Shown here: in pieces, positions 4,317 through 61,900 of the stretch
Layout: each line of letters starts with the position of its first letter
How positions within the stretch are numbered: the first letter of the stretch is position 1
Assembly (NCBI RefSeq): GCF_020921035.1
Contig: NC_063150.1
Span: 31,543,826 to 31,607,825, forward strand
Reading direction: 5' to 3'
Source: Rhodamnia argentea
Taxonomy: Eukaryota; Streptophyta; Magnoliopsida; Myrtales; Myrtaceae
DNA: 64,000 nucleotides
Translations under genes and position numbers: made by a program
Notes under the pieces: model-generated
What the model was told of the DNA's origin: nothing
Databases searched by the model: none
Seen by the model: only the letters and a program-made list of their open reading frames with translations

Positions 4317-6456
4317 ATGCAGACAGGAGCTGCGAGTGATCTTATCATACAATTGGGAAATCTCAGCTTCCACTTGCACAAGGTACAGCCAGTCGTCAGA
4401 ATTATCGTATGTTTTATGCTACTTGAAGTTTGGGATTGCATTAACTCTGATGTCGAAAATGATCCGAGTAGGACTAGTTCAACCTGCATTTTCCCGAGAC
4501 ACGGTCATGGTAACATATCCCGTCGATAGGCAGCTTTTTATTTTGCATGATGTAATTTGATTAGCTCTCATGTTTCTGGAGTCTCGTTGAACTTCTAAAT
4601 GTAGAATGTTGTATTGCCTAGAGCTCAAGCTGTCCTTTCATTTGAATTTCCTTGAAGCAGAAGATGCAATCGCCGGCCACGAATTGAAAATATTCGATTC
4701 TATCTACATATTGGCATTTGGTTTGAACTATCATTGCTTTCTGATGTCCAGCTTCCCATGGTCTCAAGAAGTGGATATATAAATAGATTGGTATTTGAAA
4801 GGAGAAGCAAAGCAGAAAGCGAGAGTTCCAAGCCTATTAACTTAGAAGACAATGTTCCTGCCGGAGCGGAAACTTTTGAGTTGGTGGTGAGATTCTGTTA
4901 CGGTCTGAAGCTTGATCTAACAGCATCGAACATCGCCCCTCTGTACTGTGCTGCGCATTTCTTGGAAATGAGCGGTGATTATCATGAATCGAACCTCGTT
5001 CCCCAAACCGAGGCATTCTTGAGTTTTGTGCTGTTCTCATCTTGGGAAGACATATTCCATGTGCTTAGAAGTTGCAAGACCATATCTCCTTGGGCCAAGG
5101 AGATGAAAATTTTGATCCGGTGCTCAGAGGCCGTAGCTTGGAAAGCCTGCAGCAATCGTAAAGCACTCAACTTCAGTACTTGCGGTGCAAACCTCTTTGG
5201 TATTCCAGGGAATAGGTCGACATACTCGAAAATTGAAGGTTCTGTTGATCAATGGTGGCTTGAGGAGGTCACGCTGCTGCGGATAGATCATTTCATAGAA
5301 GAGGTAGATGCGTGCAAAAGAAAAGGGATGAAACCCAACCTCATCGGCGAATCTATAGCCGTGTGGACAAGAAAATGGCTTTCAAGAGTGACGCTGCTCG
5401 ATAATCTGACAGCTCAGAAGCTAAACTTACCAGATGCAACGAGTTGCGATCGAGAGCTTGATGAGGGTACTTCCATCGGAGGAAGATTCTGTCTCTTGCA
5501 AGTTTCTTCTTAACCTTCTCAAAGTGGGTCTACTAATGGAGACCGACTCTGATCTGATAAAAAGGCTGGAGAGAAGAATAGCTGTCATGTTGGAGAAATC
5601 CCGCGTGCTCGATCTCTTGGTCGAGAATCGCGTAGACGGCGATACTACTTCCGACATTGGAATTGTCATTAGAGTGGTGCAATGCTATGTTTCCGTTGTC
5701 TGGACAAATCATTCGCCAAAACTATTAGCTGTAGGACGACTGGTGGATGGGTACCTTGCCTTCGTGGCAAGGGAGGAGAGACTCGCGGTCAAGGACTTCC
5801 GGTTCCTTGCAGAGGCATTGCCGAAAGATGCTCGGTTTTGCGACGGCAACATCTATAGGGCTATAGATATGTACATCAAGGTACTGTAATGTTTCTACCG
5901 CTTTTTAGACGCTGCAATTCGATCACGTAGTAGCGCGAGATACTTAATTATGTCGCTGAAGTCCTACGGCGAGCTGAGTATTCTTGGCAGTCTACTAGCT
6001 CAAGAACTGACTTGCACGGAGAGCACATACGGGTTAGAAAAAAGTGTTTCCATGTCTAATCTGACATATTTGTATTGAATCGTCATCAAGGCACATCCCA
6101 ACATAACAGAGGCGGAGAGAATGGGAATCTGCAAGGCAATGGACTACCACAAGCTGTCGAAAGAAGCGCGCGAGCACACGTTGATGAACGACCGGTTGCC
6201 CCTGAACACGGTGACGAGATTCATTCTGATGGAGCAAGTGAACATGACGAGGTCGGCGACTAACTCCGGATCAGGTTATTGCAGAACGGCCACGCAGGCG
6301 ATCCTCAGAACCAGCACCGGCTCGAGCCACGGCCGGCCGGGCTCACGAAAGGAGGTGAGAATGATGAAGCAAGAGGTGGACGCGATGCAGGCGCAGATAA
6401 GGCAGCTGCAGCCGTGTAAACTGAAGCTTCAGACACAAATGAGAGGATCCAAATAG
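4317..6456 (+). CDS. NPH3/RPT2-family BTB protein, reading frame disrupted
   Basis: Exons 4317-4382, 4752-5880 and 6091-6456. Exon 1 ends LSFHLHK and joins LPMVSRSGYINRLVFE, the usual BTB start of NPH3 proteins. The NPH3 domain follows (VDQWWLEEVTLLRIDHF, then KPNLIGESIAVWTRKWL), then SVSCKFLLNLLKVG, IYRAIDMYIK|AHPNITEAER, the typical CHKLS-like DYHKLSKEAREH and a C-terminal coiled coil. NPH3 proteins act as plasma-membrane adaptors, often of CUL3 ligases, in phototropic and auxin responses. Between about 5387 and 5434 the conserved sequence passes from one frame to the next. The first frame runs to a stop at 5511-5513 and the second starts near 5425. Either one base has been gained or two lost, or a 46-base GT-AG intron (5388-5433, phases fit) is used, which would be unusually short. 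The short N-terminus before the BTB strand is also unusual, and an upstream exon may be missing. Closest Arabidopsis paralogue not determined. Confidence 0.8.
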
Positions 6457-18800: not shown

Positions 18801-21800
18801 GCGCATAAAGTTAGTAGGATAGCGGGGAATGCATGATTTCTCCCATGAAATCAATTGATATAAATGTGCAGTTGATGAAATTGCCTACGGTAATATTCAT
18901 TATTTAGGACTTAATCGTGCATTTTAAGGAACTAAATCAAATTATTGAAGCATGCTGTCACCAAAGTCATTATTTTTCTACGCCTTTTTTTGCATCTCAG
19001 AGTGTCCCCTGTCAATTGTGAGTTATCAGTGACTCGAAGAATAATGTCTCGAGATATTCGCTGACATTTTACTATTGTGACCCTTATAATGTATGTGGAT
19101 CTGGTTGTTCCAACCTAAATGCTCAATAGTCGACCTGTCTCTAGACTTCCAGCTGACATTGAATTCCTAGGTTCTGCAGCAGATATCATTCTTTAGCTGT
19201 TCCTCTTGTTTTCTGTCTGATATTAGATGCCACAATGTATTATACAACACAGAGCTACAAATTGAAATGTACACATATAAATGAAATGGCAGCAATTTCT
19301 CACGAGTTTTTGCTTTGGCGGAAAGAATGCCCTTCAATGGAGGTTAAATCCTTGGTATCAGTTGTAGCTGGGAAGTATCGTTTTGAAGATTTAAATTTTG
19401 GATTCTTTCACATGATACTTCTGTTGGTTGACTTTTCGTCATTTACTTCCTAGAAAAATGAGAAACATCAAGGGAATGGGAAAAAGGAAGCCCTGCCACT
19501 GTCTCTTTTTGGTGATGAAGATTTGGAGAAAGAAGATACAATTGTTCCTGGAGACGCTTTTATCAAAGAACCTGCACCTGATACAAGAGATAGGACTAAG
19601 CTAACTCCAGGAACATCCATCAATGATCTCATATCCAGTCTGTACAGTGAATCCATGCCGAATGCTCCTGCAGCTGATGTTAAAAAGCTGAGTGAGGGTG
19701 CACTGAATACCACCTGGACAAATTTGGAACCAGATTCAGCAATCCAAGAGGACGACTTTGGTGATTGGGATTTTCAGGATGCCTATACACCAAGAGGAGA
19801 TGAACCTCAGAGCCTTGGCACAAGTACTCAATGGCTAAGTATCGATGGGTCGAATCCAAGCCACACTGTGCCAGTGTCCAGATTAAATAATAATTTAAAC
19901 GTCTTAGAAGATATTTCTTGGGAGCATGAGGATGTCTATTGTGGGACCAAATCTGCAGAAATCTCTATGACCAGTCCCATGGATTCACTTCAAAGTTTTC
20001 GCATTGAATTAAAACCTGATGATCTTGTTCAATTCTATGGCAATTTGAAGGATGAGTTGTGCCTTGTTGCTCGCCGCCGTCTAAATCAGCTGAAGGTCTG
20101 TTCATGCAATGACTTGCTTGTTTTGTTATGAAGTTGCTCGAACCCTGAACGTTGAGAATATGCTATTGTCAGGAGGCACAGGGCCCTGTTGATCTTGCTG
20201 GTGAAAATGCGAAGGCAAAAGCTCATGATGAGGAAATTCAGGTTTTGTGTCTACTAAATTAATCATTTTAGTTTCTTCCTTACCATTATATCAATTCTAT
20301 TCGCATTTCAATTCGTAAAATTGTTTCAGTTCTTTTGTTGCGGTTGCTTCAACACATGTGGAGTAACTCTTATTCAACCTTCTTGTTACAGGAGCTTCAT
20401 GATGAGCTGCTTTCAAACAACTCTTTCTTGCAACTGCCCTCAGATAATATATCTGAGAGAGATATCAGCATCAGTACATTTCTTGAAGTCTTATCTGGTG
20501 AAAAGTTCCATGTGATTGAGGCAGAGTATAGCTTGTCGAGTAGATTGTCATCGGTATGACTTTCTTGTCTGTGCTTGATAGAAGATCACATGCATTGGCT
20601 AATTGTAATCAACTCGAATCAGAAATCTATTTGCAACTGAGATACTTGTAAGATAGTGATTATTGCACACTCTATGATCTATCTTTTCTTTGGGTCAATC
20701 CTGCCTGAACATTTTTGTTGCCTTGCAAGTAATCCGAGATAGAATCCCTGTTACGAGATCTGTGTACCAGGCTGCCAATGCAATTGTTCTGTAAATGTAG
20801 TGGTTAAAAATGGATAAACTTCTCCCTTTTTTCTTTGCTTATTTGTGTGTCTGAACAGTTAGCTTAATTTTAAAGTTAAAAATCAGTATCATAAGTTGGT
20901 TCTGCGATGAAAAGTTAACCTCTGACTGGGTCGTTGTTTGGGTCTTGAACTTAACAGCAGCAGTATCTTGTTTGTCTGCAGGTAGAGAGAGATTTAAAGT
21001 CACTGGTTGAACTCTTAAGGCATGTAGCCTTGGTACTCAAAATCTTGAAATTCGGATCAGCTGAGGAGCAATCTAAATATGTTTCCACATGGTCTAAGAT
21101 GATCTCTGCTTGTGCTCGAGAGCTAAAGCATGGAGCCTTAATATGGAAGCAAGCTCTGGGGAAGAATGTTTCCCATCAAATTTTATCTGACAAAGAAGGT
21201 ACATTATAGCTATACCGAGAACGATAAAGATAGTGACAACTAGAGTTTCTTTGGGCCTCGAATTTTATGTGCTGTTGTTTTGATTTCATTTAGGCAAGCA
21301 GCATATACTTGCACTTGGAGAAGTTTACAGAGCCGTCGGAGTTCTTGGGGCCTCAGCCATGTTATACAAACCATGGATTCTTCTTAATTATAGAGATTTC
21401 TCTGGCATGTCTGCTCTTTTAGATGAATGTACTACTATATGGTCCAGTTCAGGCCTCGAAGAAGCTCTTCAAAGCATATCCGATCCTCTGGAGTTCCAAT
21501 ATGAGGAGACCGTCAAGGCTTTATTGGAGTCCATCAAACATGTTTACACTCTCGATGTAGGTGTACTTCAGAAGGCTATTTTTTCTTGCGAAGAACCTGT
21601 TTGCCGTTTGTCCCTGTTGAATCCAGGAACAGTGCCAGGTATGTGAATACTACACGTCAATCTATTCTTTATCCATCAGGGGGTTTGGTCTGGTCCAAGA
21701 TCACTGTTATCACTGAGTACTGCCACTTATAGCGTGCAAGTACTTGATCTGCAAAGATTATCTATTGCATCCGATTGCTGTTTTGAAAGTAAAAGTTCTC

Positions 21801-22150
21801 GAATGGGATTCCCATGCATTTTCGTGCAAGTACTTGACCTGCTAAGATTATCTGTTGCATCTGAATGCTGTTTTGAAAGTAAAAGTTCTCGAATGGGATT
21901 CCCATGCATTTTCCCTATTGTTAGGTTGTCTCTTTTTCATTTTCTTTTCCTTTGGCTGGCTAAGTACGTTGAATCTTCTTCTTGAAACCTTAATTTTGGT
22001 TCTAAAATGCTACTTGCTGTTGTTGAGCCAGGTATGAAAATGATCGTCTGGGACGAGGAGCAATATTTTCTCAAACTTGCTAATCTATGGGCAAATTTGA
22101 TCAGCCGTGATCCTCCAGAATTGCCGTGTATCAAGATTCATGGATCATGA
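15847..22150 (+). CDS. synergin-gamma-like clathrin/AP-1 accessory protein
   Basis: Ten exons, all in phase: 15847-16575, 17226-17459, 17933-18211, 18633-18752, 19454-20095, 20173-20241, 20392-20553, 20982-21198, 21294-21638 and 22032-22150, giving about 970 aa. The N-terminal two-thirds is acidic and disordered and contains repeated aromatic-acidic motifs: DEGFGDFAF, DDWSDF, DEEWEFKF, NDFGWEFK, NDWDFR and DFGDWDFQ. These resemble the DFxxF/WxxF adaptor-binding motifs of gamma-synergin and other clathrin accessory proteins. The C-terminal third is a helical domain (FYGNLKDELCLVARRRLNQL, then SLVELLRHVALVLKILKFGS, then KMIVWDEEQYFLKLANLWAN) like the synergin-gamma C-terminal region. Probable role: trans-Golgi/endosome sorting. 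Older plant annotations call such proteins dentin-sialophosphoprotein-like. From memory a counterpart is near At1g54920. Confidence 0.75.
21733..21912. repeat. 90-bp tandem duplication in last intron of the synergin-like gene
   Basis: Units start CGTGCAAGTACTTGA at 21733 and CGTGCAAGTACTTGA at 21823 and end CCCATGCATTTTC. They match except for a few positions. Entirely intronic. Confidence 0.88.
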
Positions 22151-24223: not shown

Positions 24224-27028
<2,805 letters not shown>

Positions 27029-28611: not shown

Positions 28612-28860
28612 CTAATTGTGCAGTGGATCAGGTGACGAGGGTACTTTTCTCTTTTCGGCAGCAAGGAATTCATCTCCAACTTGTGTCGTTGCAGTAGCTG
28701 GGATCGTCGTCGTCGTCATCTTCCTTGTATGGACAGTATCTTTGCCTCTTACGCTCGCCTTCACATGCCGAGTCCCAAAACACAATTCGGTGCTCAAAGC
28801 CGAAGTGGTTAAGAAAATCAACAGCAGGCAGCACACTTGGAACTTGGAATCGTCGGGCAT
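28612..28860 (-). CDS. CLE: CLE peptide precursor with serine at position 6 of the ligand
   Basis: Single-exon frame of 82 aa. It has the three parts of a CLE prepropeptide: a hydrophobic signal segment near residues 8-24 (FQVCCLLLIFLTTSALST), a variable Thr/Lys-rich middle, and a C-terminal CLE box immediately before the stop, RKVPSSPDPLHN, preceded by the usual acidic/basic processing context (LAAEKRK). The dodecapeptide matches the CLE pattern at Arg1, Val3, Pro4, Pro7, Asp8, Pro9, His11 and Asn12 and is closest to CLE25/CLE26-type ligands (RKVPxGPDPIHN). The exception is Gly6, nearly invariant in the family, which is Ser. CLE peptides are secreted, hydroxylated on prolines and sensed by CLV1/BAM-type receptor kinases controlling meristem and vascular development. 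A pseudogene is possible, but the frame is intact throughout. The opposite-strand frame is a shadow. Confidence 0.85.
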   Translation of the reverse strand: MPDDSKFQVCCLLLIFLTTSALSTELCFGTRHVKASVRGKDTVHTRKMTTTTIPATATTQVGDEFLAAEKRKVPSSPDPLHN

Positions 28861-30632: not shown

Positions 30633-33600
30633 CTATACTTCGACAGTGAACAGATAAATCTTCAGGACAACGGCAAGAGCCAGCTGCAACAGGAAGATTG
30701 CGGCCACTATCAAAAACCACCTCTCCCCTGCAGACTTAATGTGGGCTCGGAGATTAAGAGCCACAAAGGTCGCAGACATGAAACCGGCCACTCCAGCCAC
30801 CACCCATCTGAATATATCCAGAGGCACAACGGAGAGACACTGAATCCAAAATATAGTGACGATTCAGATTCTAAAAAAAATTGGGAAGAAGCTATAGCAA
30901 ATCGTAGAAAAGGGACCCTGACCCTCATCCAAACTCCGAATTCTCAGCATCATTGTATTCACTTTTATGTACGAATAACAAAACATGGCAGTTGACACTA
31001 TTATCACTGGGAATGCATTTTTGATAGCCATGAAGACATGGCAATGAAATCGAAAGACGAATCGATACCAAACTGACTCTAGCATTGACTTCCCCTTCTC
31101 CTACACTGAAATCATTTTGTTTAAGTCAATTGAAAAAGTCAAAGAAATGATTGGGAGGAATTGATACCAAACAAAGAACAAGAGCTCCCATATTAATCTC
31201 AGAACAATATTAATGTAAAAGCACGTGGTAGACTATGCTCAAAGTAAAATCAGTGTGGAATGTCTTAATTGGACTTGTGTGAACATGAGAAGAATTAATC
31301 ACCCGTAATGTCCTTGTATTCTCCATATATAACCCCAACAAGTTTTTGTTGTTTACTTCAAGTACATAAGACCACCAGTGCTCTCTCTCAAATAAGACCA
31401 AAAAACTTACCAATGCTGGAATGAAGACAAAAAGGGAGTATCCATAAAGGCAAAGCAGCTGAACAAGGCCTGACGGTGCTGAGAAGTACTTCAAGATGAT
31501 GTATAATCCGAGAGGTACAACAGTAACATAGCCATAAAATAATCCGGCAGACCATGTGACAAGATTTATGTCATAGTTCCATTGTTCTTTCTTCAGCTTG
31601 TGAGCTATATATGTGACAAAAGTACCAATTGAAGCTGCAACAAAAATGAGGGTGGTGCATATCCAGAATGGTCCATACCTGCGTATTCACATATAATTAC
31701 CTAAAGCAAGATTGAAAACAAAAGGACGACATTATACAAAACTTTCTCCTTAGAGCCTATCCATCTATGCCTGGAAGTGCAGATCAAATAAACCCTGAGA
31801 TACAGACAAGTGTGCTAATCGGTAAAGAAACATGCACCTTAAGAAGCTTTTAAGGAACTAATAGAATATAAAAAGTGCTGATGTCTCAATCAACTAGTTT
31901 GAAGCTGCTTTTTTCCATGAAGATGAAGGCATTCACCTGCTAGTACATTGTTTGCATGCAATGGCAATTAAGTGTAAAGCTCATCATGCGCATTTCAGTT
32001 TCAAATAAGCTGACTGGATTATATTTTAGGGATATTTCAAAAGCATTGCACCATGGCGATAAAGCTCCACAGCTAAATCCCTATCAGAGTTAAATTCTGT
32101 GGATCAAAGCTAAATACTTAAAGCATTGCTGATGCTAAAATTCACGATGAATTTTCATGAAATCTAGCACCTTTTTAAAAGTATCGTATGATACAAAAGC
32201 AAGGATTTACCAATGTCATTCCCCTAGTAGTTGCAAAGAGTGTTATCATTCCATAGTTGCACGTTTCAGAAATGAATTCACAGCACTATTTGGCAACTCC
32301 ATGAATTTAGTACCACTCAAATATCACAGGTGCCAATGCTGAGGACAACTTACAGATCTGGGTTGCCGGAGGTTTTCTCATTAAAGCTTCCTCTAAATGG
32401 GAATAGTGAATCTTTAATTCTCTCAAGCACGTCTGAAGTGTCGACATCAAAATATGGTTTATAGGAGGCAACTGAGAACATACTAAACCAACCACTTGGC
32501 TGAGAGTCGTCTGGTCCAAGTGCAGATTTTGAAAATGTATCTGCATCATAATCAAGATAATGTACATAAATTAGCGAAATATGTAATTTGCAACAGAACT
32601 TCAATCCGCTTTAAGATTTAGACCTGACAATAGGATATTCAGTAACTTTTGGTCCAGTTAAATACGAAACAGCAAAAGCGAGAAAATATGTAATTGCAGG
32701 AACAGAAGCTGAGATATAAATTTCCAAGCACGTACTGCCTTTTCTCTTCGAACACTCCATAGATCAACAAGATTGTGTCTCATTAAACAGAGCTCGTTTA
32801 GCTGTGAACAAAAGCTAGACGAATGGAATCTAACATTAAGCTTGCCTCATTTTGCCTTTCACAAGGATGAAAATCAAAAAGGCAATAGCAAGACGAAATA
32901 ATTATCATAAGTCCCAAAAATACACAAAATAAAGTATGATGATGTCTTGCATACCATCAGCATCTCGAGGAGGACCAGAGCCACCAACTATCTTCCCTTT
33001 TGCATCGGATGGAGGGAAAGTCTGGAGATGGGAATCTGAGAAAAGATCAATTCTATTGAATTCCAAAGAAAACAAAATGATGTTGATGACAAACAGTAGA
33101 GACATCAATTGCAATGAGATAATCTCAACGAAGGCTGAGTGGGCTTTGAATTCAGAACTGGACAAGCTGAACTGATCCTTTGATCAAACCTATGCAGCAA
33201 ATCATGGACTTGAACAACAGAACTATCCTCCCGCAAGAGTTACCCAAGTCAGGCTTTCCCACGTTTTCTCTACCCATAAAAGACAACCCAAATCTCACGA
33301 ACAGCTAAAACACTAAGTATGACGAACACCACAGGATTGGCTTTGGAAAAAGGCAAATTCTACAGATAACAGACTCGAATTATCCACTATTCCTCTTCCT
33401 AATCGTGCTTGATTCATGATATAGCTATTCGCGCATGTCAAAAGCGGACCTCGTACCAAACTCAAAGCATAGACAGCCTCAGCTTAGACAAATCCACATT
33501 CAACCTCGTTTTCGGCAATCAAGCGCAGAGCAGAAGGCAAAACTCTAAGAAATTCCTCAAATCACAGCACATTCTCATTCGCATAAACAACCAAGACTCC

Positions 33601-35532: not shown

Positions 35533-38444
35533 TCAAGCACTTTTTAGTCTGCCCCTCGTGAGCAGCAGAGATCTCCTTAATGCAAGAATAAGAACCCATG
35601 TGGTTGCACTAATCTTTTCCTTAATCATCAAAAGCAAAGCAGAGCTCAACACGGTTTTCAAAATTTGAGCTCGCAATCCCTTGAAAAAGCCCAGCAAGCC
35701 TTCTCTATTCCATATGGCGAACACGACTCCCATAAGTGTTTTACGAGGTTTCTTCTGAGCTTTTTCTGTTCCGTTGTCACCGGAATCAGCAGCTTGAATC
35801 ATGACCTTACACCTTCATGCAACAAATTGTCAATTAGTTCTTAGTTCTGCAAACAAAGCTCATAGAATAGGTAGATTTATTGGAAAGAGAGGTACACCTT
35901 ATCGCAGGATAGGTCAAAATAGTGGCGATGCTCTTTGATAGTGCACCCAACGCGAAAGCTGAGAATGCAGAAAGCGATTCGGGGGACGAATCCTTGTCTG
36001 TTTTGTTTTGTTTACTTTTCAAGAGTCTTTGTTTGAGCTGATCGAAAACTGTGTACTGAAGGAAAGAAAAGGTCAGTCTCATGAAAATTCTCACTTTAAC
36101 AGTCCTTGACCACAGTGAATTAACAACAACAGTCCTCACAATGCTTATGCCACTCGAAAAGTATATACCTGAATTGCAGGGTTGGAAGTCAGCAAAAGGG
36201 AGATCCCCAGACCATCAAACACATGGCTCCAATCACCCTCAGTAAGAGTCTGCCAAAGGCCCTTGGATTTCCCAAAGGCACTTGTTTGCATCCTCGCAGC
36301 GGCTGTATCCAGGGGCTACACAACAATATACCAAACTCCCTCAAGATCACATACAAATATCACTTCTTCATGAAAAAATAAAGGCGAAAAATAAACAAAT
36401 GATTGGAAAAAAAAATATTACTTGCTATTTTGCATATTATTTGATAAAAGATTATTTATTTTCTAGATCTCATACAGACATAGCATATTCAAATGCCAAT
36501 GATAATGCTCTAAGGTATTGAGTTCTTAACCTGAATCAGTTTAATTATGTTTTTCAATCCAAATTTCCAATGGAGAGAGTCACATGGTGCATGTACCATG
36601 TACTTCCGAATGAAGCTTGAATTTATTATCTGTATGTTTATATATGTAAAAGGAGAACACTGGCAAGGCAGAACTTTTTTAGAGAGGATTCACCTGAGTA
36701 AGAATGGCAGTGCAAGCACCAGCTGCAGCAGCCAGAACCAAATTAGCTTTTGTTCCAACTGACTTATAACCACTCCTTTCTATGTATAATCTTTTAAAGT
36801 AGCTGTATCCATAGAAGTAAACAAACTGAGCAACGAAAGATTGCAGGTTTTTGGTCCCTAAGCCCTGGTACAGTGAGAGCACCTGGCGGTTAGATATTGC
36901 CTCCCAGAGAACATCTGACAGATGCCTGTGCAGACAGAGAAAAACAAAATGGATTAATTATCAAAAATATCCAGAGAGCAGCTTACAAGAGAGATGACAT
37001 AGATCCACTAAATTCTATCAGAGATTTGCGCCCCAAAGAAAAAGGCTACAAATTGCCACTGCAAACAAAGATTGCAAATAGAGATGGTCTCAATATATCT
37101 AGGAAGCACTGAGAGAACGATGTTTGAACATCATTTTACACCTCTTGAAATGTAAATTTCATGCCATGTTAGCACTTCAGAGAGAGTTTGAGTCAGAAAG
37201 ATAATATGAAAAAATGGCATTGAGCGAAAAGACTCCAAATAAATAAAGAAAAAGAATCATATAAGCTGTGAGCACAAATTAACTTCAAAGAGATAACGAG
37301 GAGAAATATTCAGGTTTATGAACCAGCAGTAAACGCAAACTATTGCCAAATAATCCAAAATATCACCCTCTCAGAAAGAATACAAACTACAAGCAGTTTA
37401 TGTTCACTTCATTCAACTCCAACATATATTAACCAAAATCTAGTACTCTGTTTTTTTTTTTGGTCCAAAAATCTAGTACTCTGTTTGACAGTATATTAAT
37501 CATGAAAGTCACACAAAGATCAACAATGAAAAGAGAAACTTGTAAGAAGAGATGGCAGAGAGAAGTTATAAGCTGGTATCCGAGGGAACCAAAATAGGGG
37601 CAGAATATCTCCGAATTTGCCGTATTGGCAGCAACAGATGCAATGAATGAAACGTGCTTGCACAAGAGGAAGCCATTGCACAAGAGTGCCAAAGCTAAAT
37701 TTTCACTTTTCAGGACCATGCGAATGGGGAATGAACCATAACTCTCCTCCCAGGATGTAATTACTTGTCAGGCACAGAAGACTCCGTGATTCAATTATAA
37801 AACCCTTTTATCAAAGCTTAGCAGCAGCGACAACCGGTCTCATCTCAAATGGTCAATTCTAATAACAGCCGCTCAAACCAAGATCGAGACACTCCTGCAG
37901 AATCAAAGCCGCTGAAAAATGGAGGCACGAACAACAATGTCTCGATGACAAAAACACGACCCTTCTCAGCCAAAAAAACAAGAGCTAATTTCGGAATCAT
38001 CAACCCCTACGACAGCACTGCGAGGAAAATATTCACTGCACAAAACCGAGAGATCACTCTCTTCAATCCGCTAGTACTCAATGCAACAAACTAAATCCGT
38101 CGGGAAAGAGAAAACGAAGCCGCACCAACGATCTCAACGCCCGCGAAAACACGATCATCCTACACAGCAGGACAGGAGCACGGTTCGAAGGATCAGACCC
38201 TTTCACAGCGCACTCCGAAATTCACCACCACGAAACCGACAGGATCATGATCTCGAACGACAGAAATCATACAAAGCGAAACGAAGATCTCAAGAACCGA
38301 CCTGTATTTCTGTTGACCGTGGGCCTGAACCTCGGCTTGGTACTTGGTCTTGCAGGTGTCGAGAGGGTACAAGATGGTGGTGCTGAGCAGCGATCCCACG
38401 GCGCCCGACGTCGCGTCCGACAGAGATTCCAGATCAAGGGCCAT
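35533..38444 (-). CDS. PNC: peroxisomal adenine nucleotide carrier (PNC1/PNC2 type)
   Basis: Five exons, minus strand, all in phase: 38444-38302, 36925-36694, 36315-36169, 36055-35898 and 35812-35533, giving 319 aa. It is a three-repeat mitochondrial-carrier-family protein. Each repeat has its signature: [22 protein letters not shown], and YPAIRCKVMIQ. Diagnostic stretches shared with plant PNC are [53 protein letters not shown] and [16 protein letters not shown]. PNCs exchange cytosolic ATP for peroxisomal AMP, feeding acyl-CoA activation for beta-oxidation in seedlings. The true start is MALDLES at 38444; the frame open farther upstream is leader sequence. An (GA)n tract lies in the 5' leader. 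First intron is about 1.4 kb. From memory it corresponds to At3g05290/At5g27520. Confidence 0.95.
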
Positions 38445-38700
38445 GATTCCGAAGACGACGAGGTCACCTACTCGCAAAGGCCTGCGCGCATTATATACAC
38501 GGAGAGAGAGAGAGAGAGAGGAGAACAAGAAGAAGAAGTGTAAATGAAATTGGTTTAGCTGGAATGTGGAAAACGACGGAGCCGAGGGAGACGCCGAACA
38601 CAGAGAGAGAGAAGATCCCACGGGATGGCGTTTTCCTTGGGAAGTGAGAAGCGAGGGGATGTGGACGATTTCCGTCCAAATTGAACGGTCGCGTTGACGG
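38445..38700 (-). promoter_or_regulatory. 5' leader/promoter of the PNC gene with GA/CT tract
   Basis: Coding-strand CT tract at 38502-38523, followed by TATATAAT around 38490-38497 nearer the start codon. The position of the TATA-like word so close to the ATG suggests it may not be the functional TATA box. Confidence 0.4.
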
Positions 38701-40962
38701 ATCAAACCAAACCCAAAGGCCCGCGCGGCCGCATTTATTGTTAACGACGTTGACGCGGTTAGGTGCAGGCGGGTTCGGCGTGGGGGGTCTCTATCCCGGT
38801 CAACAGCAGGTGTAATCGAGTCAACGTGTCCGGTCCCGACGTGTGAAAAACATGATGGACAACAGGTAAGAGTTTCCAAAGCCGAATGTAAAATACTAGT
38901 TGCGATTCGTGACAAATGGATAATGTAATTTCCCTGATTACCCTACGTCGGTGTTGTAACTAATGCATAAGATTTCTCTCTTTTTTCCATATGAATTGAT
39001 AAAATGGGACACGATACGATACGGCTATATGTCGCAGCACAATAAAACTCTAATTTATTTGTTGCTATGAATTGACGCTTGAAGGGTTTTTTAAACAAAC
39101 AAAAAATTGGCCTGAGTGATGCAAATTTAAAACGCAATATATCTCATGACGATATCACGGTAAATGCTTGCACAACGTTTGCAAATGAAATCACTTGACG
39201 TAGGGTTTTTAAAATCGAGTCAAAAAATCTAATCATAATTCCAATTGGGGTAAAGGGGGAAAAAACAACCTTTCTTTTTTTGTATATTGACTCGATTCGG
39301 TTCAGTTCCTCATCTCCTTCGCATCGTTCCTCCTCACGTCATTCGTTGAAGCCCTGTGAAATCCGCCATTGAATGAGAAGACCTAGGTAAATACATCACA
39401 TCCTCTCTCTCTCTCTCCCTTATTACTTATTCTCTTCAAAGTAAATGCACACCCCCGAACAGTTACGCTTCAGGTTTTTAAAAATTTTGAACCGAACCAA
39501 TGACAACCCTACTTAAAGTTATATTTGATAGATCGAATATAACTCTGGATAAGATATAATATATTTCGGTGATCTGAATTTTGAATTTCTTTGGATATCA
39601 TCCGTGTAAAAAAAAATCCGATCTAATAGGTGGGACATATCAAGATATGATGAAGATCATAAAAATGAAAAGAAAATAAAATAGAGAGATGATGAAGGAG
39701 GAGAGGACACTCTGTACTGAAATCGCAAGAGATTCTTCCGTGGAGAAGAAAAAGAACGAGAGCGCATCAAGCTACGATCCCATCCATGGCGATCTTATCA
39801 TATCATCAAGCGCCGCGGTAGAAGGCCAGCGTGCGAGCTCCACCATCATTCGATACAGGAGCGTCGCTCAGCAATCGTCCCCATATGTCTTTCCCTCTCT
39901 CTATCTAAACCCCGTCATATCGACGTGATCCAACGCTCTAGAACTCGGATCAGAGACTTGCGACCTCGGATTAGAGGTTGTCGGCCTTTGGGGTCCTGAG
40001 GATGGGGCTCGCACTCGGTGTCGGCCACGACCAAAGAAAGAGGTAGCAACCGCAAGCTCGCGTTCATCATCGAAACTAGAGTGTTCGTGACCAACGCTTG
40101 GAGGTCGCCTGAGGCTGGACCTCGTCATTGCGTCAGTCATGGCCTTTGTGTCTCTGCCGGTGGCCGTAAAGGTGACCGTCTAGCTAAGAAACACTCAGAA
40201 ACGTTTCCCCCATCAACGTGTAGCGAGAGTTAAGCAACGCGACAAGGTCTGAGAAAGTGAGAAAGAAATAGAGCCACTTTTTTTTTTTTTTTGTGGGCGG
40301 GAGGGATTGCAAGAAGGGAGAAGATTGTGTTTTAGACTTGAAAACAGAGGAAGGACGAGGGACGCGACGAGGGCTTTGGGGCACTCACCTGGTGGCCGGG
40401 AAGCTCCGATGATCCTTGCCTTGCCGGCTATGATGCGTTTAAAAAAAAAAAGTCAAGAAGGAAGGAAAAAAATAAATAACTAAAAATTTGAAAAGAAATA
40501 TTAAACTATTAAAAATTGTTAACGCCAGAGCCAATCGTATTAGGTAAGATGTCTGAAGATTTATGACTACATTGGCGAAAAAAAAATTATGACTGAATTA
40601 AAATAATTACAATAAGTTTAGAAGTTTTTTGATAATTTTCCCGATCTCTATCTACACACGTCAATTACTTGACATTTTTTTCGTTTATGTATATGAAAAC
40701 TCTTTCCTAGGGGATATAGAAAATAAAATGCACAAGCAAGAGGTCGTGAATTTTTTTTGATAATGTCCCACTTTCTGCATCGGATATGTAGTAATTGGAG
40801 TCGATGGAAAAATGTAGAATTTTGAATTATTTTGTTTTGAAAGACAGAAGATGATAGACAAATCCTTTTTTTTTTTTTTACTCACACAGAAAACAAAAAA
40901 ACTTGGATTGGGTAGAAAATTACATTTCACGTGAGGAAAATTGAAGACACGAGTTAATCGAT
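38701..40962. other. gene-poor intergenic DNA with a GC-rich block
   Basis: No gene recognised. 39930-40440 is GC-rich within AT-rich flanks and holds a long T-run (40279-40292). A frame at 39689-39928 shows no domain. (CT)n at 39402-39418. Confidence 0.4.
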
Positions 40963-42462: not shown

Positions 42463-44803
42463 ATTGGTATCAGAGCCAGGTTTGTCTAGTTGAAGCGAAT
42501 CAATGGCCACAAAAGAAGTAAAAGTGAAAATCGATAGATTTGAGGGGAAGGACTTTGATTTTTGGAAGATACAGATTGAAAACTATCTCTATCAAATGAA
42601 GCTGCATTTGCCCCTATCCGAGGAGAAACCGGAGACGATGAAGCAAGCCGATTGGGAATTGTTGGATAGACGAGCGCTGGGTGTTATTCGAGCGACGTTC
42701 GCTCGTAACGTCGCGTTTAATATTATTAAAAAGAAGACCACTGCGGGTTTGATGAAAGCCCCGTCGGATATGTATGAGAAGCCATCTGCGATCAACAATG
42801 TCTATTTGATGCGACGTCTGTTTAATTTGAAGATGAGCGAAGGTGCATTAATTGCTAATCATATCAATGAATTCAATGTGATTGTTAGTCAATTAAGTTC
42901 AGTTGATATTGACTTTGAAGATGATGTATGTGCTTTGATTCTATTATCCTCATTGCACGATAGCCGGAATACTACTCATATCGCTGTTAGTAATTCCTCC
43001 GGGTTAACAAGTTTGACGTTTGATGGTATTCGAGATTTGATTTTAAGTGAGGACATTCGTAGAAGAGAATCTGACGAATATGTATCTACCGCTTTAGTAG
43101 GTGAAAGTAGAGGAAGAACCGATACTCGTAGTAGTAGAAGTAGTATGAGCTCGAATAGACGCAATCGGTCTAGGATTGGCGGTCTTGTCTGTTGGAATTG
43201 TGGCAAGAGAGGACATTTTAGAAGGAATTACTTAAAGTTGAAAAACGAAACGGGTAAGGGAATTAGAGTTGAATCTACAGATGATGTTGCAGCTATAGGC
43301 GATAATTCCGATGGTGTCGATAGGGTCTTGTCTGTCACAAAAAATTCGTCATTTGATGGATGTACTATGGATTCTGGTTGTTCTTTTCATACTACACCAA
43401 ATAGGAACTGGTTTGCTTCTTATCGGTGCACGGATAGTAGTAAAGTGCGGTTGGGGAATAACGCTGAATGCAATGTTGTGGGTGTTGATGATGTTAAAAT
43501 CGGGATGCACGATGGTATTGTGAGGACATTAGCTGGAGTAAGACACGTTCCAGCATTGAAAAAGAACTTAATTTCCTTGGGTGCCATAGATTCAGTTGGA
43601 TGCGGGTATTCTTCACAAGGTGGAGTTCTGAAGGTTGTTCAAGATGCCTTAGTGATAATGAAAGGAATAAAGCATGATGACCTGTATGAACTTTAAGGTG
43701 AGACATGGACAGGTTTCGCCCCGGAGACGTTGGTATCTGTTCGAGAGTCTAATGACCGCTCGAGGAACACTTGGGTGATTGTGCCGAAGCACAAGTTTGA
43801 TGTTGTTGTCGGGAATACGCGATTGAGAGCTTTGATTGAGACGGAGGCTGGTAAGTCGATCAAGCATGTGTGAACCGACAGTAGCATAGAGTTCTGCTTG
43901 AAGCTGGTAAATAAATTCTGCATGATAAAGGGTATAGTGAAACACCGCACTAGTGCTAGTAGACCACAACAATTTGCGGAATTGATGAGCAGAACATTAC
44001 TAAAGACAACCCATAAAATAATTTCAAGTGCTGGTATGGCTAGAAGAGTTCTAGCGGATGCGCTTAGTATGATGACCTACCCGGTGAATAGATCTCCATC
44101 GATTGCGATCAGATATCGGACTCCCAAAGAAGTGTGGTTAGGTAACGTTGCTGATTATTCTATTTTTAGAATGTTTGATTGCGCGTGTTATTATCGAGTA
44201 AGTGATTGTAAGTTCAATGTGAGGGCAAAATGCATATTACGTGGCTATGCACGAGGTGAGTGGCGTTATCAATAGTGGTTTCCAAATATAAATTCACCTG
44301 TTTGCGGTAGAAAAGTTATCTTTGACGAGTCTCCCGTACTTCGGGGTAAGAGTGATTATAGCAGTGTTCATACGGATCCGGACGGTGTTCGACTTGAGGT
44401 GGAGTTGCAACCGGAAACTCCTAAGGTAGCGGATACTAATGTAGTAATCGACACAGATGATGCTTTTAGGGAGGTGGAGCCAGTAGAGCCAACGGTTGCT
44501 GTCACTGCTGATATTAACAAGGTACGTATTCGGTATCCTAACGTATATGGATGCAATGGTGGTTTTGCTTTATCCGTGGTTAAGGAGCTTGTGTCGGAAA
44601 GTTCTTGTGGAGCGCTTAAAAGTGCATGTGGAGTTTGTATTCTGATTAGGTCCACGGTTATGACGAAGTTCAAGTGCGGCTTGAACTTGGAAAGCGGCTG
44701 TGGCGGTTGAGCTTATTATGGCTGTGGGAGAGTAGCAGGTGAAATTCGGATTATCGCCGAAGCGAGTGTGACTTGGCTCAAACGTCGAGCCAAGTGGAGA
44801 TTG

Positions 44804-55368: not shown

Positions 55369-57336
55369 CTAATCTGCGTCCAAGAATAGAGAGCGAATCT
55401 TGTCAGGTGTATATCCTTCATCTGTCATCAAAGGAAACAGCTCCTTTATAACTTCAAAAATGATTTCACTTTGCGTGTGCATCCTGTCCCTAACAACAAA
55501 GCTATGGACTTTCTTCTCAATCTCAATCGAACTAATGCCCGTTTCTTTAGTCACCCCAGCCTCTTTCATTCTTTTTATAGTCCTTGCTCTCTCTTTCCAA
55601 TCACCTTCAGCAGAATATATATTGGCCAGCGAAATGTATGGCGCAGGGGTCTCGGGTGCAGCAGAAATCAGCTGCTCGGCAGCATACCTTCCTATCTCAG
55701 AATCACTATGCATGCTACAAGCACCAAGCAAGGCTTGCCAAACTAGAACACCAGGTTCCGTGGGCATTCCCTCTATGAAACTCTTCGCTTCAGCAAGGCG
55801 ACCAGCCCGTCCCAACATGTCGACAACACAAGCATAGTGCTCTGTCCTTGGACTAATTCCATACTCCCTTTCCATTGAATCTAAAACCTCCATTCCCTCC
55901 TTGACTAAGCCAATATGGCTACAAGCATGAAGCAAAGAGAGAAACGTAACGTCTGTCGGCTTTACACCTTCCATTTTCATTTCTTCGTACAACTGTAGAG
56001 CTCCATAGCCACCTCCGTGACATGCAAAAGCATTAACCATGGAATTCCATGAGATCAAATTTCTTGAAGGCAACCGACTAAAGACTTTGAGTGACTCCAC
56101 GATATCTCCACACTTCGCATACATGTTTATTAATCCATTGCTGACGAAGGGAATATGCGAAAAGCTTCTTTTGATAATCAAAGAGTGAATTTGTTTACCT
56201 AAACCTAGAGAAGTATCGACACCAAAAACCCCAAGAACAGCAGAAACCACATTAGAATCAATCTCCAACCCTTCCTTTACCATTTTCAGAAACATTTGTA
56301 TAGCTTGTTCTTCAAACCCATTTTGTGCAAAACCTACAAGTATTACAGTCATAGAAACCTCATCTATAGTCTCTGCAGACTCGAATAAATCCAGTGCATC
56401 TTCTAGACTTCCACATTTTGCATACATATCCATCAGTGCACTCTCTACCAATAAATCTGACTGAATACCCAATTTCCAGGTGATGCTGTGCAACTGGCGC
56501 CCCACGTTTATTGCTTGTAGACCTGAACACGACATGATGGAGCTCAAGTATGTGAGAGTATTCGGATTGAGTGATCCGCTACGCATACTCATAAATAACT
56601 TTAAACTATCCTCAAAAAACTCATTCTGTTGAAGGCCAAAGATAACAGCCGTCCAACTAATTACATTCCTCTCGAACATTTCATTAAAAACCTGCAATCC
56701 CCAATCAATGCCACCACATTTGAAATACGATGTGATCAGAGCATTCCCAATCGTAACTTCCCTTTGAAATCCACCCCTGAAGACTATGCCATGCACCAAC
56801 TCAACTACACGAGAAAGCTCACGGGTATCACAACCAGACAGAATCGTCGTTACCGTGGCTTTATCCACACCCTGAACACCCCCTTCCCACATTCTTTTGA
56901 ACGTCCTACAGCACATCTCAAACTCCCCATTCCTCAAGAACCCAAATAGCGCAGTGTTCCAGGAAATAGTGTCTTTCGCGGGCATTTCATCAAACAGCTT
57001 AACGACATCCAGCATGTCTCCGCACTTCGCGTACATCGAGAGCAGAGAGTTCCAAACAACAAGACCATTTCGAAAGAGGTCCTCATTTCCTAGGTCGTGT
57101 AGTTCAGGGTTCTTGATAATGGATGCGTGAAGAGAAGAGCCCAGAAGGAAACGCCCTTCTCTGCCGCAAGTGGACAGAAGGCGGCTCACGTGTACGTTGT
57201 CGAGAACAAAAGTAGAAGCTTGCGATGAAGCGTCTGGAAAGGTCTGAGCTCGGAGCGGAGGAGCGAGAGAAGACCGAGGAGAGACATGGGAGCTCAGTCT
57301 CCGAAAGACCCACTTCGAATTCATCCATAAAATCAA
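55369..57336 (-). CDS. PLS-class pentatricopeptide repeat protein with E/E+ tail
   Basis: Intronless frame of 655 aa, as usual for plant PPR genes. The N-terminus (MILWMNSKWVFRRLSSHVSPRSSLAPPLRAQ when read in two parts) is basic and Ser-rich, like an organelle targeting signal; a second start at MNSKWVF is possible. From about residue 90 there are repeated P, L and S motifs with the standard phrases VWNSLLSMYAKCGDM, DTISWNTALFGFLRNG, NVISWTAVIFGLQQN, ESALMDMYAKCGSLEDA, NGLINMYAKCGDIVES and LISWNSMVNAFACHG. The C-terminus is an E/E+ domain (YACVVDMLGRAGRLAEA, VWQALLGACSMHSD, SLANIYSAEGDWKERA, GISSIEIEKKVHSF) without a DYW deaminase. Such proteins bind organelle RNA and usually specify C-to-U editing sites, with a partner supplying the deaminase. 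Similar to At3g05340 from memory; RNA target unknown. Confidence 0.95.
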   Translation of the reverse strand: MILWMNSKWVFRRLSSHVSPRSSLAPPLRAQTFPDASSQASTFVLDNVHVSRLLSTCGREGRFLLGSSLHASIIKNPELHDLGNEDLFRNGLVVWNSLLSMYAKCGDMLDVVKLFDEMPAKDTISWNTALFGFLRNGEFEMCCRTFKRMWEGGVQGVDKATVTTILSGCDTRELSRVVELVHGIVFRGGFQREVTIGNALITSYFKCGGIDWGLQVFNEMFERNVISWTAVIFGLQQNEFFEDSLKLFMSMRSGSLNPNTLTYLSSIMSCSGLQAINVGRQLHSITWKLGIQSDLLVESALMDMYAKCGSLEDALDLFESAETIDEVSMTVILVGFAQNGFEEQAIQMFLKMVKEGLEIDSNVVSAVLGVFGVDTSLGLGKQIHSLIIKRSFSHIPFVSNGLINMYAKCGDIVESLKVFSRLPSRNLISWNSMVNAFACHGGGYGALQLYEEMKMEGVKPTDVTFLSLLHACSHIGLVKEGMEVLDSMEREYGISPRTEHYACVVDMLGRAGRLAEAKSFIEGMPTEPGVLVWQALLGACSMHSDSEIGRYAAEQLISAAPETPAPYISLANIYSAEGDWKERARTIKRMKEAGVTKETGISSIEIEKKVHSFVVRDRMHTQSEIIFEVIKELFPLMTDEGYTPDKIRSLFLDAD

Positions 57337-58984
57337 AGTCGCAGAAACACAGTGACGGCGATTACCACAGAGAAGGCGAGGTTCTTTCCTTAGGCTAGTC
57401 TATCAAGCTTCGCAAACTGCGATTGTAGACTACAGAACTTTGACCTCCTCGGCGCTTTTCTGCCGAGAGGTGGAGCCGGGCGGGCTTGTGACGGCGGAAA
57501 AGCGAGTGCAATTCACGAGTCATGACTAATTGACTATGGCCATGCCCTACTTAAGTTCAGATATGCATGTAGGTAATGAAAGTATTAAAGCTTATCATTT
57601 TTTATATCGACAAATTGACAAATTTAAATTATATATCAAAATGACATCGTTCCAGCTACATTAGCGCTACATAAAATAAAGAAAATAATAGAAAAAATCA
57701 CATTAATATTTTTCGTTAGCCAAATTGAACGGAATTAATGAAAAGACTCGACTATACCAATTTGATAAGTTTTAGCGCTTTATATTTTTTGCAAGTTTAT
57801 GCCTCGATTGCACTTTCGCACGGAATTTTAAGACTTCTATCCCTTGAAACTTTACAAACTACTCAATTCAATTTAAAATGAAAGATAGTTATCACATGTC
57901 ATCTTTTGACCATTCTATCGAGAGTCAACGGAGCCGAGGAAGCTTAATTTTGACTCGCTTTAATGTTGTTTGTTCACGCCTTTCTATCCCTTCCAGTCAG
58001 AGCAAGAGACAAATGGGTTTTGTACTTGACAACAGAAAACCAAATGCGCAAATGCAGCTAGCCTGTGCATAATTGCATTTGCACAAGGGATGCAACATGA
58101 TATTAGGCAGACTTTTGTGTGCTTGTATGCAATTCACCGAAGCAGGGGCAAGAAAGCAAAAGCAGCCATATCGAAGCTATACTTCTAAATATTCAGAGGA
58201 CATTATGTCTATCAGATTTCCCTCGTTAATTTCTGGAGGAATTATGGCCACTACAGGAACTCGCAACACTTGCGGTTGGAAGTCATGAACAAGCTACTTT
58301 TTCCGACAGAAGCATAATTAGGTAGACCCATAGCATGAATTGAAATGTATGGATCAGAATTCTCAATCAAATTCCATTTTGCTGATCAACAGGTATATCC
58401 TGGTTTGAAGTGGGCCATCAAGAGATTCATTAAGATAAACATCAGGATGGCACCATCCAACTTAAGACTTATATTATCAGGGGAACGTAGGTATCTTCGG
58501 GGCTTTTGAGAAGGGGAAGGATATCCACTTGTCATTTCTAAAAAGGGGCGAAACATCCGGGAATAAGAAAAGTAAAAAGGTTGTTTTCCTCCCTGTCTAT
58601 TCTCTCACAGATCACTATACAGACAATTAAGATTCCTGTAACGAGTGTAGCACGGAGAAAGCACACATGCTCACAAATACATTTGCTTCGACAATTGACA
58701 CTGTTAAGGATTCAAGACAGACTGATATTGTTAGAGCATCCAGCGGCATCCCACAAGATACTCCAGAGTGTGCGAAGAGGCAAAAGTGCTGAGACTCCTG
58801 CCCAGTGATGCTTTCTTACTTCCGGCCGGATGGTGAGAGACTGCTGATAAAGATGTAACCAAAGGAACTGATACACAAAATAAACACAGCCAGGACAAGG
58901 ATTTAAGGGCAGTTATATCGATCTGAAGAGCACGTTCCCTCCACAGAATTGTAATATCAGACAGGACTTTGACCATTTCTCACC
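57337..58984. other. intergenic, no gene recognised
   Basis: PPR promoter (near 57337-57540) and the 3' flank of the mannosidase gene. 57560-57860 is AT-rich. Short frames at 57878-58288 have no domain. Confidence 0.45.
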
Positions 58985-61900
58985 TCAGTGGACAGTATGC
59001 CCACCATGGTAATTCCAGCCATTCAGCGTGACTCGAGGAGTAACGCCAGTTGGAACTTCGAAAGAGACATTGATGGTCATAATTTCGCCCGGTACTAAAG
59101 AGAAGTAATTATCCGAGTAATGAACAGGAAGGATTCTTGTGTCTTCTCCTTCCTTGCGGTCTGCCTTCATAGCATGAACAGAGAAATGAAGGAAGAAAGC
59201 AACTCCAACTTCGGTTCCATTGATAATCGTGACGCTTGGACTATTAGCCTCCTTCGAAAAGCATTTGCCCGCTCTCTGAAGTAAACCGGATCGGCATTTT
59301 ACCTCCTTAGCAGCTTGGTCAGAATCGAAAGAGGCCAAGTCAATGTCTCCCCCACTATGCCTTGTACTGAAAACATTCCGGTACGTTAAATTTTGATAGT
59401 CTGGCTTTTTAGATGTGTTTTGCACATGCATGTCAATTTCGTATGTGGAACCTCTGACATAAGCCCTAGATGTGATCCTGAGAGGTACTTTCTTCTTCCT
59501 GTATGCTTCCAACAGCTTGTAGTTACCACCAGACACATGTAACCAGTAAAAGTTCCTAGATATGATACCAAAATCGGACATGTGGTAGAGTTTAAGAAGA
59601 AGGAAGTAGACAGGCTTCGGACTTTGCGATTTGGGATATTTCATCTCAACAATGGAAACAGTCTTTTTGGGTGGCACTGAAAGTTTGTCAAAAACCTTGT
59701 AGTATGGACATGCTCCCTCCAAATCCCAGACTGAGGCTTCTATTGCTACGCCAGAGAGCGCATCTGATGTGGTATTAACAACCTGTAGAACCAGACCGGA
59801 AAAGGCTATTATCAAGTTCTACTATTTCACAGGAAAAATTATGAGTTCATATTTAGGCTATACTGAAGAATGTGTGACTGCATAACTTAATAGCGTTGCT
59901 CCCCAACAAAGATGTGCATCGAGTCTATTGAAAGAATAATAATGCTCTGAGCTCTTACTGGGATTCTATGGCAAGATGTACCTCAATAGAATAGGTGGCT
60001 AGATTAAGTTGAACATGGATCGGCTCTGCAGCTGAACGGCAGCCGTAGAACCCTGCCGTTTGATCAAGTAGGTGATCATAAAATTGACCTCTAAGACCAG
60101 TCCAAGGATTCTGTGTCTTCCATATGAGAACCCCCGTGAATTTTCTCCACATATAAGAAGTCCAGCCTTCCAATAAAGCTCTATACTGTATGTAGTTTAC
60201 GAGCTGAGCCTGATGAGTCAAAAAAATAATATGTACTCAATGGTTGAACAGAAGAAACAGACTAATGGCAACACCCTTCATTGAGTCTTACCTTCAAACA
60301 GAAGTCATCAAGATCCTTGGGGGTACCATAGAGTTCGATTTGATCATGAACCTTGTCTGGTTTTGAGTATGGTATGTACTTATGGTATTCCCATATAGGA
60401 TTTGGAACTTCTTCTGTGTAACCATTTGAAAGTTTCTTGAAGATTGGAATTTGCCATCCTTCTGGAGGCATTGTTGCTCTGATGGTAGCTGCAACAGGCA
60501 TACCCACAGAACCCACTTCTGGATTGAATCCATAACTGTAGAAGTCATCCTTAAAGAAGCTTTCAGGATACTGGATCTCGTAAGGGCCATCGGTCCAACC
60601 ACCTTTGCTGTCAGCAAACCCATCCCACATGGACCCTTGAACATAGATGCGTGTTCCATCGAGATAGAGGCTGGGATCTTTCTCCTCTTTATTCAAATCT
60701 TCTAAAGTTTTGTCATCTTCACCCACCTTTTCAAAATAGGGATGAAGTTTGAGGTAATTCTTTAGAGCAGTGTTGAGGTCATCTGGTGGAACTTGTTCGT
60801 TTCCACCTACCCAAAGAGCCAGACTTGCATGATTCCTTATAAGCTTGACAGTGTCTTTTGCACACAGAAGAAATAGGTCATGATCCAGCGGGCCATCTGG
60901 ATTGGATACCGGGTCTCCACGTCCATCAACGTCACCAGTAATCCAAAATTCTTGCCAGACCTACAAAAGCTTTATAAGCGATTGGATAGCAGGACAAATT
61001 GATTTTGCTAACATACAGACAAAAATGACACCAAGCATCTGAAAAGAAGGTTGGCCGAGTTGTGTTCAAAACTTGACAATAAACCGTACAAGTTATGTAG
61101 AGGTCATTTACAAACTCTTAACATGTCATCATGAAGCAGGTGACTGAGTATTTATTCTGCAGCAACTTCTGTGAGTCAACAAATACTTTAGTATAAAAAA
61201 GGTTCCGTACATCCGGCACACATATTATTCTGTGTCCTATCCATGTTCTACCCGACTTCATCATCCAACATAGTATACAATGTCCCAAACAAGCTCCTAC
61301 GACAGTGCCATCTCAACAGAGAGAGAGAGAGAGAGAGAGTTACCAGAAGACCATACATATCACAATAATGGTAAAATTCCGGCCTTTCCGATAATCCGCC
61401 AGCCCAACAGCGGATCATGTTGAAATTCATATCAGCATGGAATTTGATATCGGTCCTGTAGCGTTTCTCTGAAAGTCGCAGTAATCCGTCTGATAAAATC
61501 CAATTACCCCCACGAATAAAGATGGGCTGCCCATTAACCTTGAACAACCTAAAGGCACAAGTACATCGACAATAAAAAATGCAATTCAAATTTCTAATTC
61601 TCCGTAAATTATGAATTACCTCACCTTCCACCAGTTGCACTATCAATATGGCTCTCAATTTTGCGGAATCCAAATAGATGTCTCCACAAATCAGACTCTC
61701 CAAATCCTTTCACTTCAATGCTGACAGCAACATGGTAAAGGGACTGCTTTCCCATGCCATTTGGCCACCATAGATTCGGCTTATAGAAAAATAGCTGCCG
61801 GTTGATACCAAGAATCAATTAATTAGGATCATCTTGATTTTTTCTATATCCAACTTTCCACTTCAACTTTTCTGTAGATATTAAATAATATTGGCCAAAC

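Follow-up and report, generated by a model that had tools for sequence, protein, structure and literature searches.

The window analysed here, 64,000 nucleotides of the genome of Rhodamnia argentea, carries a CLE peptide gene whose ligand has Ser at position 6 in place of the usual Gly. All in all, it reads with good confidence as an ordinary single-copy plant CLE gene, the product of which would be secreted and act as an agonist of a CLV1/BAM-type receptor, perhaps a weaker or more selective one. Ser6 itself is a known, recurrent minority state of CLE ligands.

The open reading frame lies on the minus strand, which the original prediction had left unstated, from 28860 down to 28612, and runs from ATG to TAG through 82 codons in one uninterrupted frame. 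The translated precursor, 82 amino acids in length (MPDDSKFQVCCLLLIFLTTSALSTELCFGTRHVKASVRGKDTVHTRKMTTTTIPATATTQVGDEFLAAEKRKVPSSPDPLHN; computed pI 8.57), ends in KRKVPSSPDPLHN, with the stop codon TAG next. Upstream of the ATG the frame extends just 8 codons, none of them an alternative ATG, and the start is preceded by ATCACC, giving A at -3. Residues 1-23 (28792-28860, minus strand) form a putative signal peptide: hydropathy, the one property considered, reaches its maximum of 2.29 across residues 9-23, while MPDDSK, the n-region, is acidic, which is atypical of signal peptides. The predicted cleavage site agrees, through the sequence A-L-S/T, with the -3/-1 rule for signal cleavage. There follows a variable region, residues 24-70 (28651-28791, minus strand), whose last residue, Lys70, abuts the ligand. 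The ligand, the CLE dodecapeptide RKVPSSPDPLHN, occupies residues 71-82 (28615-28650, minus strand), with Ser5 encoded by TCG and Ser6 by TCA. A precursor of this design would enter the secretory pathway, and cleavage before Arg1 would release the dodecapeptide. Pro4 and Pro7 would probably be hydroxylated and Hyp7 arabinosylated, and the released peptide would then bind an LRR receptor kinase of the CLV1/BAM type as an agonist, its agonism perhaps weakened or made more selective by Ser6 standing for Gly6.

The six hallmark residues of CLE ligands (R/H1, P4, P7, P9, H11, and N/H12) are all present and abut the stop; agreement with the CLE consensus extends over R1, V3, P4, P7, D8, P9, L10, H11, and N12. 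A CLE matrix was made from 28 motifs picked from the 50 poplar rows of Table 1 of PMC4776436. One of the 28 is a Cys6 motif, KRRVPSCPDPLHN, and both motifs of the R. argentea genome were excluded. On this matrix the motif scores 37.1 bits, while the runner-up 13-mer within the whole window scores 8.6 bits. The top score in 60 windows simulated by a first-order Markov process was 18.8 bits, or 12.6 bits when a following stop was required. The motif is well beyond chance, and it and the translation of the frame bear out the original prediction of a CLE-type precursor gene with Ser6, the ligand being the last 12 residues before the stop. The serine is not readily dismissed as an artefact. Its codon, TCA, is two base changes from the nearest of any Gly codon, so neither a single base-call error nor a one-step change from Gly explains it, and sequencing error was rejected on this ground.

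Searches of general collections returned little. The precursor had no match at gathering level in Pfam, the sole match being a chance-level one to TAP35_44 (E 0.12; 12.8 bits, below the cut-off of 25), and no match in NCBIfam or PDB; the doubled dodecapeptide matched no chain in PDB. These blanks carry little weight, because the precursor is so short. An Rfam scan of 20-42 kb of the window gave nothing. A scan for bacterial promoters and terminators was set aside as irrelevant for a plant gene, with counts close to those of shuffled controls.

The original prediction had taken Gly6 to be near-invariant; neither this nor the idea of Ser6 as a novel departure is supported by the published ligands. 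The tomato table of PMC9670457 lists 52 motifs, with 46 Gly at position 6, 2 Ser, 2 Glu, 1 Cys, and 1 Val (6/52 non-Gly), and the 50 poplar motifs in Table 1 of PMC4776436 have 46 Gly, 3 Cys, and 1 Ala (4/50 non-Gly). Ligands with Ser6 are on record as SlCLE2 (REVPSSPDPLHN) and SlCLE9 in tomato (PMC9670457) and as CLE68 in Medicago (PMC2254619). Cys6 occurs in Medicago CLE67 (RKVPSCPDPLHN; PMC2254619), tomato CLE28 (PMC9670457), and poplar CLE22, CLE30, and CLE42 (PMC4776436), and the Cys6 of Arabidopsis CLE27 has been noted to deviate from the norm at a residue of key importance (PMC6095548). Since some published CLEs also lack Gly6, Ser6 does not bar the window gene from membership. In the main texts of open-licence articles searched, the exact dodecapeptide did not occur, and PSSPDPLHN, in any context, occurred in PMC9670457 only. 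The sequence of the dodecapeptide may thus be unreported, but its kind is already known.

Among 104 motifs (52 tomato, 50 poplar, 2 Medicago), those matching the window ligand at 11 of 12 residues are SlCLE2, Medicago CLE68 domain 1, and Medicago CLE67. The likeness to SlCLE2 (Solyc01g098890) takes in Ser6 and a short precursor, 81 amino acids from 246 bp (PMC4195864) compared with 82 here; the ligands differ at position 2 alone (Glu2 in SlCLE2, Lys2 here), though the listed pI of the tomato protein is 4.78 (PMC4195864) compared with 8.57. Expression of SlCLE2 was fairly uniform across the tissues examined (PMC4195864). Domain 1 of Medicago CLE68 (RKVPSSPDPIHN) shares Ser6 and differs at position 10 alone, but it belongs to a 181-amino-acid protein with three motifs and is not C-terminal, unlike the ligand here. 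CLE67 differs at position 6 alone (Cys6). Tomato CLE28 and poplar CLE22 and CLE30 match at 10 of 12 residues but have Cys6. Tomato SlCLE9 (REAPMSPDPLHH) shares a natural Ser6 in a peptide that is weakened yet works; it is, however, a CLV3 paralogue with His12, and it differs from the window ligand at positions 2, 3, and 5 as well. Having Ser6, the window gene falls outside the CLE27 type, whose ligand has PSCPDPLHN. The ligand of Arabidopsis CLE43 (AT1G25425) is presumably RRIPSSPDRLHN, with Ser5-Ser6 as in the window ligand but Arg9 where the latter has Pro9.

Because its unusual serine is common to known CLEs of tomato and Medicago, the window gene looks like another member of the minority type. 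Ser6 may well have been inherited as the state of that minority (SlCLE2, Medicago CLE68), beside the Cys6 ligands of the CLE27 type, and a separate origin in this gene is possible. The window adds one more intact short CLE gene and one more natural variant at position 6. This variant, SlCLE2, and the ligands with Cys6 give a small natural series (Gly, Ser, Cys, Glu at position 6) with which to test how far receptors tolerate a side chain at the Gly turn.

That position 6 matters, as had been claimed from the sequence, agrees with published work. In the structure of TDIF bound to TDR, Gly6 contacts a Phe of the receptor and permits the peptide to turn, and TDIF binds TDR 13.9 times more weakly with G6A and 20.1 times more weakly with G6T (PMC5383425). 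The natural Gly-to-Ser change in SlCLE9 made a weaker peptide, which still compensated partly for the loss of SlCLV3; the weakness is not wholly that of Ser6, because the promoter of SlCLE9 is degraded too (PMC12661658). A closer comparison is offered by the 14-mer of Medicago CLE67, which differs from the corresponding 14-mer of the window only at position 6 and in the residue preceding Lys. At 10 uM, a high dose, it halted root growth, and a randomised version did not (PMC2254619). Position-6 variants of CLE27 proved no guide: at 10 nM they behaved the same as the CLE27 peptide, and they are uninformative because the unmodified peptide had itself no effect at that concentration (PMC4526918). 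The available portions of PMC8213210, PMC6612224, PMC9028419, PMC4526924, PMC7552357, and PMC13259593 hold nothing decisive on Ser6.

With the CLE67 14-mer active, and with synthetic G6T forms of CLV3 and CLE40 not behaving as antagonists, a Ser6 ligand is most simply read as an agonist, perhaps a weak or selective one, and the window ligand is probably of this sort. What counts towards the whole reading, an ordinary CLE gene with an agonist ligand, is the intact frame, the motif well beyond chance, the lack of a second copy, the three published ligands matching at 11 of 12 residues, the activity of CLE67, the partial compensation by SlCLE9, and a Cys6 CLE27-like gene elsewhere in the genome. 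Against it count the acidic n-region, the far weaker binding of TDIF G6A and G6T, the high dose at which the CLE67 14-mer was given, and, if CLE43 carries Ser6, the reported lack of a root effect of its peptide. One might go further and suppose that Ser6 marks a conserved subclass (the window gene, SlCLE2, Medicago CLE68, and perhaps Arabidopsis CLE43) selected for tuned low affinity or for a distinct receptor, not a worn-down Gly6; this seems doubtful to us.

The original prediction had offered three options for such a ligand: a weak agonist, an antagonist, or a peptide with changed receptor choice. Under the last, CLEs with Ser6 or Cys6 would be a group of their own that acts apart from CLV3-CLV1 signalling, through another receptor or another site on a receptor. 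This would fit the suggestion that the CLV3 receptor complexes do not perceive CLE16, CLE17, or the Cys6 peptide CLE27 (PMC6095548), and also, if CLE43 carries Ser6, the CLE43 peptide, which reportedly left root growth unaffected (PMC6749341); CLE43 is said as well to suppress xylem differentiation (PMC4195864). However, Medicago CLE67, with Cys6, arrests the root meristem like the Gly6 peptide tested alongside it (PMC2254619), and the Phe that packs against Gly6 is reported to be invariant in BAM1-3 and CLV1 (PMC5383425), so that no specially fitted receptor is known. Such an altered receptor choice is rather improbable, although the idea overlaps with that of a selective agonist, and the likelihoods given to the two are not exclusive.

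Antagonism, in which the Ser6 peptide would sit in a CLE receptor but leave it inactive and so damp Gly6 ligands, appears the weakest of the three options and, overall, very unlikely. The antagonism of Gly6-to-Thr on which it drew was indeed reported for CLV3 (Song et al. 2013, as summarised in PMC4526918), but it was not reproduced with the synthetic peptides put to a new test. In PMC4526918, CLE40 and CLV3 with G6T gave a response in the distal root comparable to that of wild type, and position-6 variants of CLE26 and CLE45 looked like weak agonists; these are other peptides than ours, and the same article, citing also Xu et al. 2015, still grants that the antagonist approach is useful for some CLE genes (PMC4526918). 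It is because synthetic position-6 variants resemble wild type or weak agonists, and because activity is seen in the Cys6 peptide that is the nearest relative with an assay (PMC2254619; a different peptide), that we rank antagonism last, and Ser6 SlCLE9, likewise a different peptide, still compensates in part (PMC12661658). That the gene is instead decaying or silent, Ser6 being drift in a disused copy, is also very unlikely, for although Ser6 weakens one CLE, SlCLE9 (PMC12661658), the frame here is intact, a basic residue stands ahead of the ligand, the other conserved ligand positions are retained, the serine is common to tomato and Medicago genes, and it lies two base changes away from Gly.

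The genome searched for further copies comprises 346.7 Mb in 74 contigs, and the eleven long contigs that were met span 23.9-37.3 Mb. No second copy was found genome-wide, whether the search used the protein (E 0.001) or an 801-base stretch of DNA (E 1e-5), and at these thresholds the gene is single-copy. When the protein search was relaxed to E up to 10, it gave another CLE precursor (L015, RRVPTGSNPLHN, E 0.33) and a locus without a CLE motif (L016). The Cys6 CLE27-like precursor of this genome, which was absent from the three candidates scored in that search, lies at G000:C6:27424013-27424375 (L008, 1500-1862, minus strand) and ends in KRTVPSCPDPLHN. CLE motifs above 14 bits were found at eight distinct places within 35 loci (L001-L035), a number that is not a count of the family; six have Gly6, one has Cys6 (L008), and one, the window gene, has Ser6. 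At two of the eight places (L006 and L024), the open frames are just 34 and 42 amino acids long.

A gene for a seryl-tRNA synthetase of cytosolic type flanks the CLE gene on one side; its matched exons lie at 24910-25089, 25344-25706, and 25940-26215 (plus strand), and 6gir and 8p1y tie as its best matches in PDB. On the other side lies a Yip1-domain gene (match at 31213-31686, minus strand) and beyond it a carrier gene spanning 35533-38942 (minus strand), with a Mito_carr match at 38196-38942. With further exons discerned by eye at 35.5-37 kb, its product resembles a peroxisomal adenine nucleotide carrier. Presumably the Arabidopsis counterparts of the synthetase, Yip1, and carrier neighbours are AT5G27470, AT5G27490, and AT5G27520, and no CLE gene is known in that region. 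Since the flanks seem to resemble AT5G27470-AT5G27520 and not AT1G25425, positional orthology to CLE43 is unsupported. The Yip1-domain gene has one further match in the genome (44% identical, on contig C5), as does the carrier exon (63% identical, on contig C6). A duplicated block bearing a Gly6 sister gene was sought around these matches, but the 18 kb and 40 kb covered there hold no CLE motif that scores above 14 bits.

The remainder of the window includes a BTB/NPH3 gene (4656-5889, plus strand), a tandem duplication at 21733-21913 (2.0 copies of a 90-bp unit, 94% matches), and a retroelement fragment with Copia-type gag/pol (Retrotran_gag_2, Pol_BBD; 42494-43696, plus strand). Farther on are a PPR protein with an E motif (55369-57399, minus strand) and a stretch with an exo-beta-D-glucosaminidase Ig-fold domain (58985-59818, minus strand).
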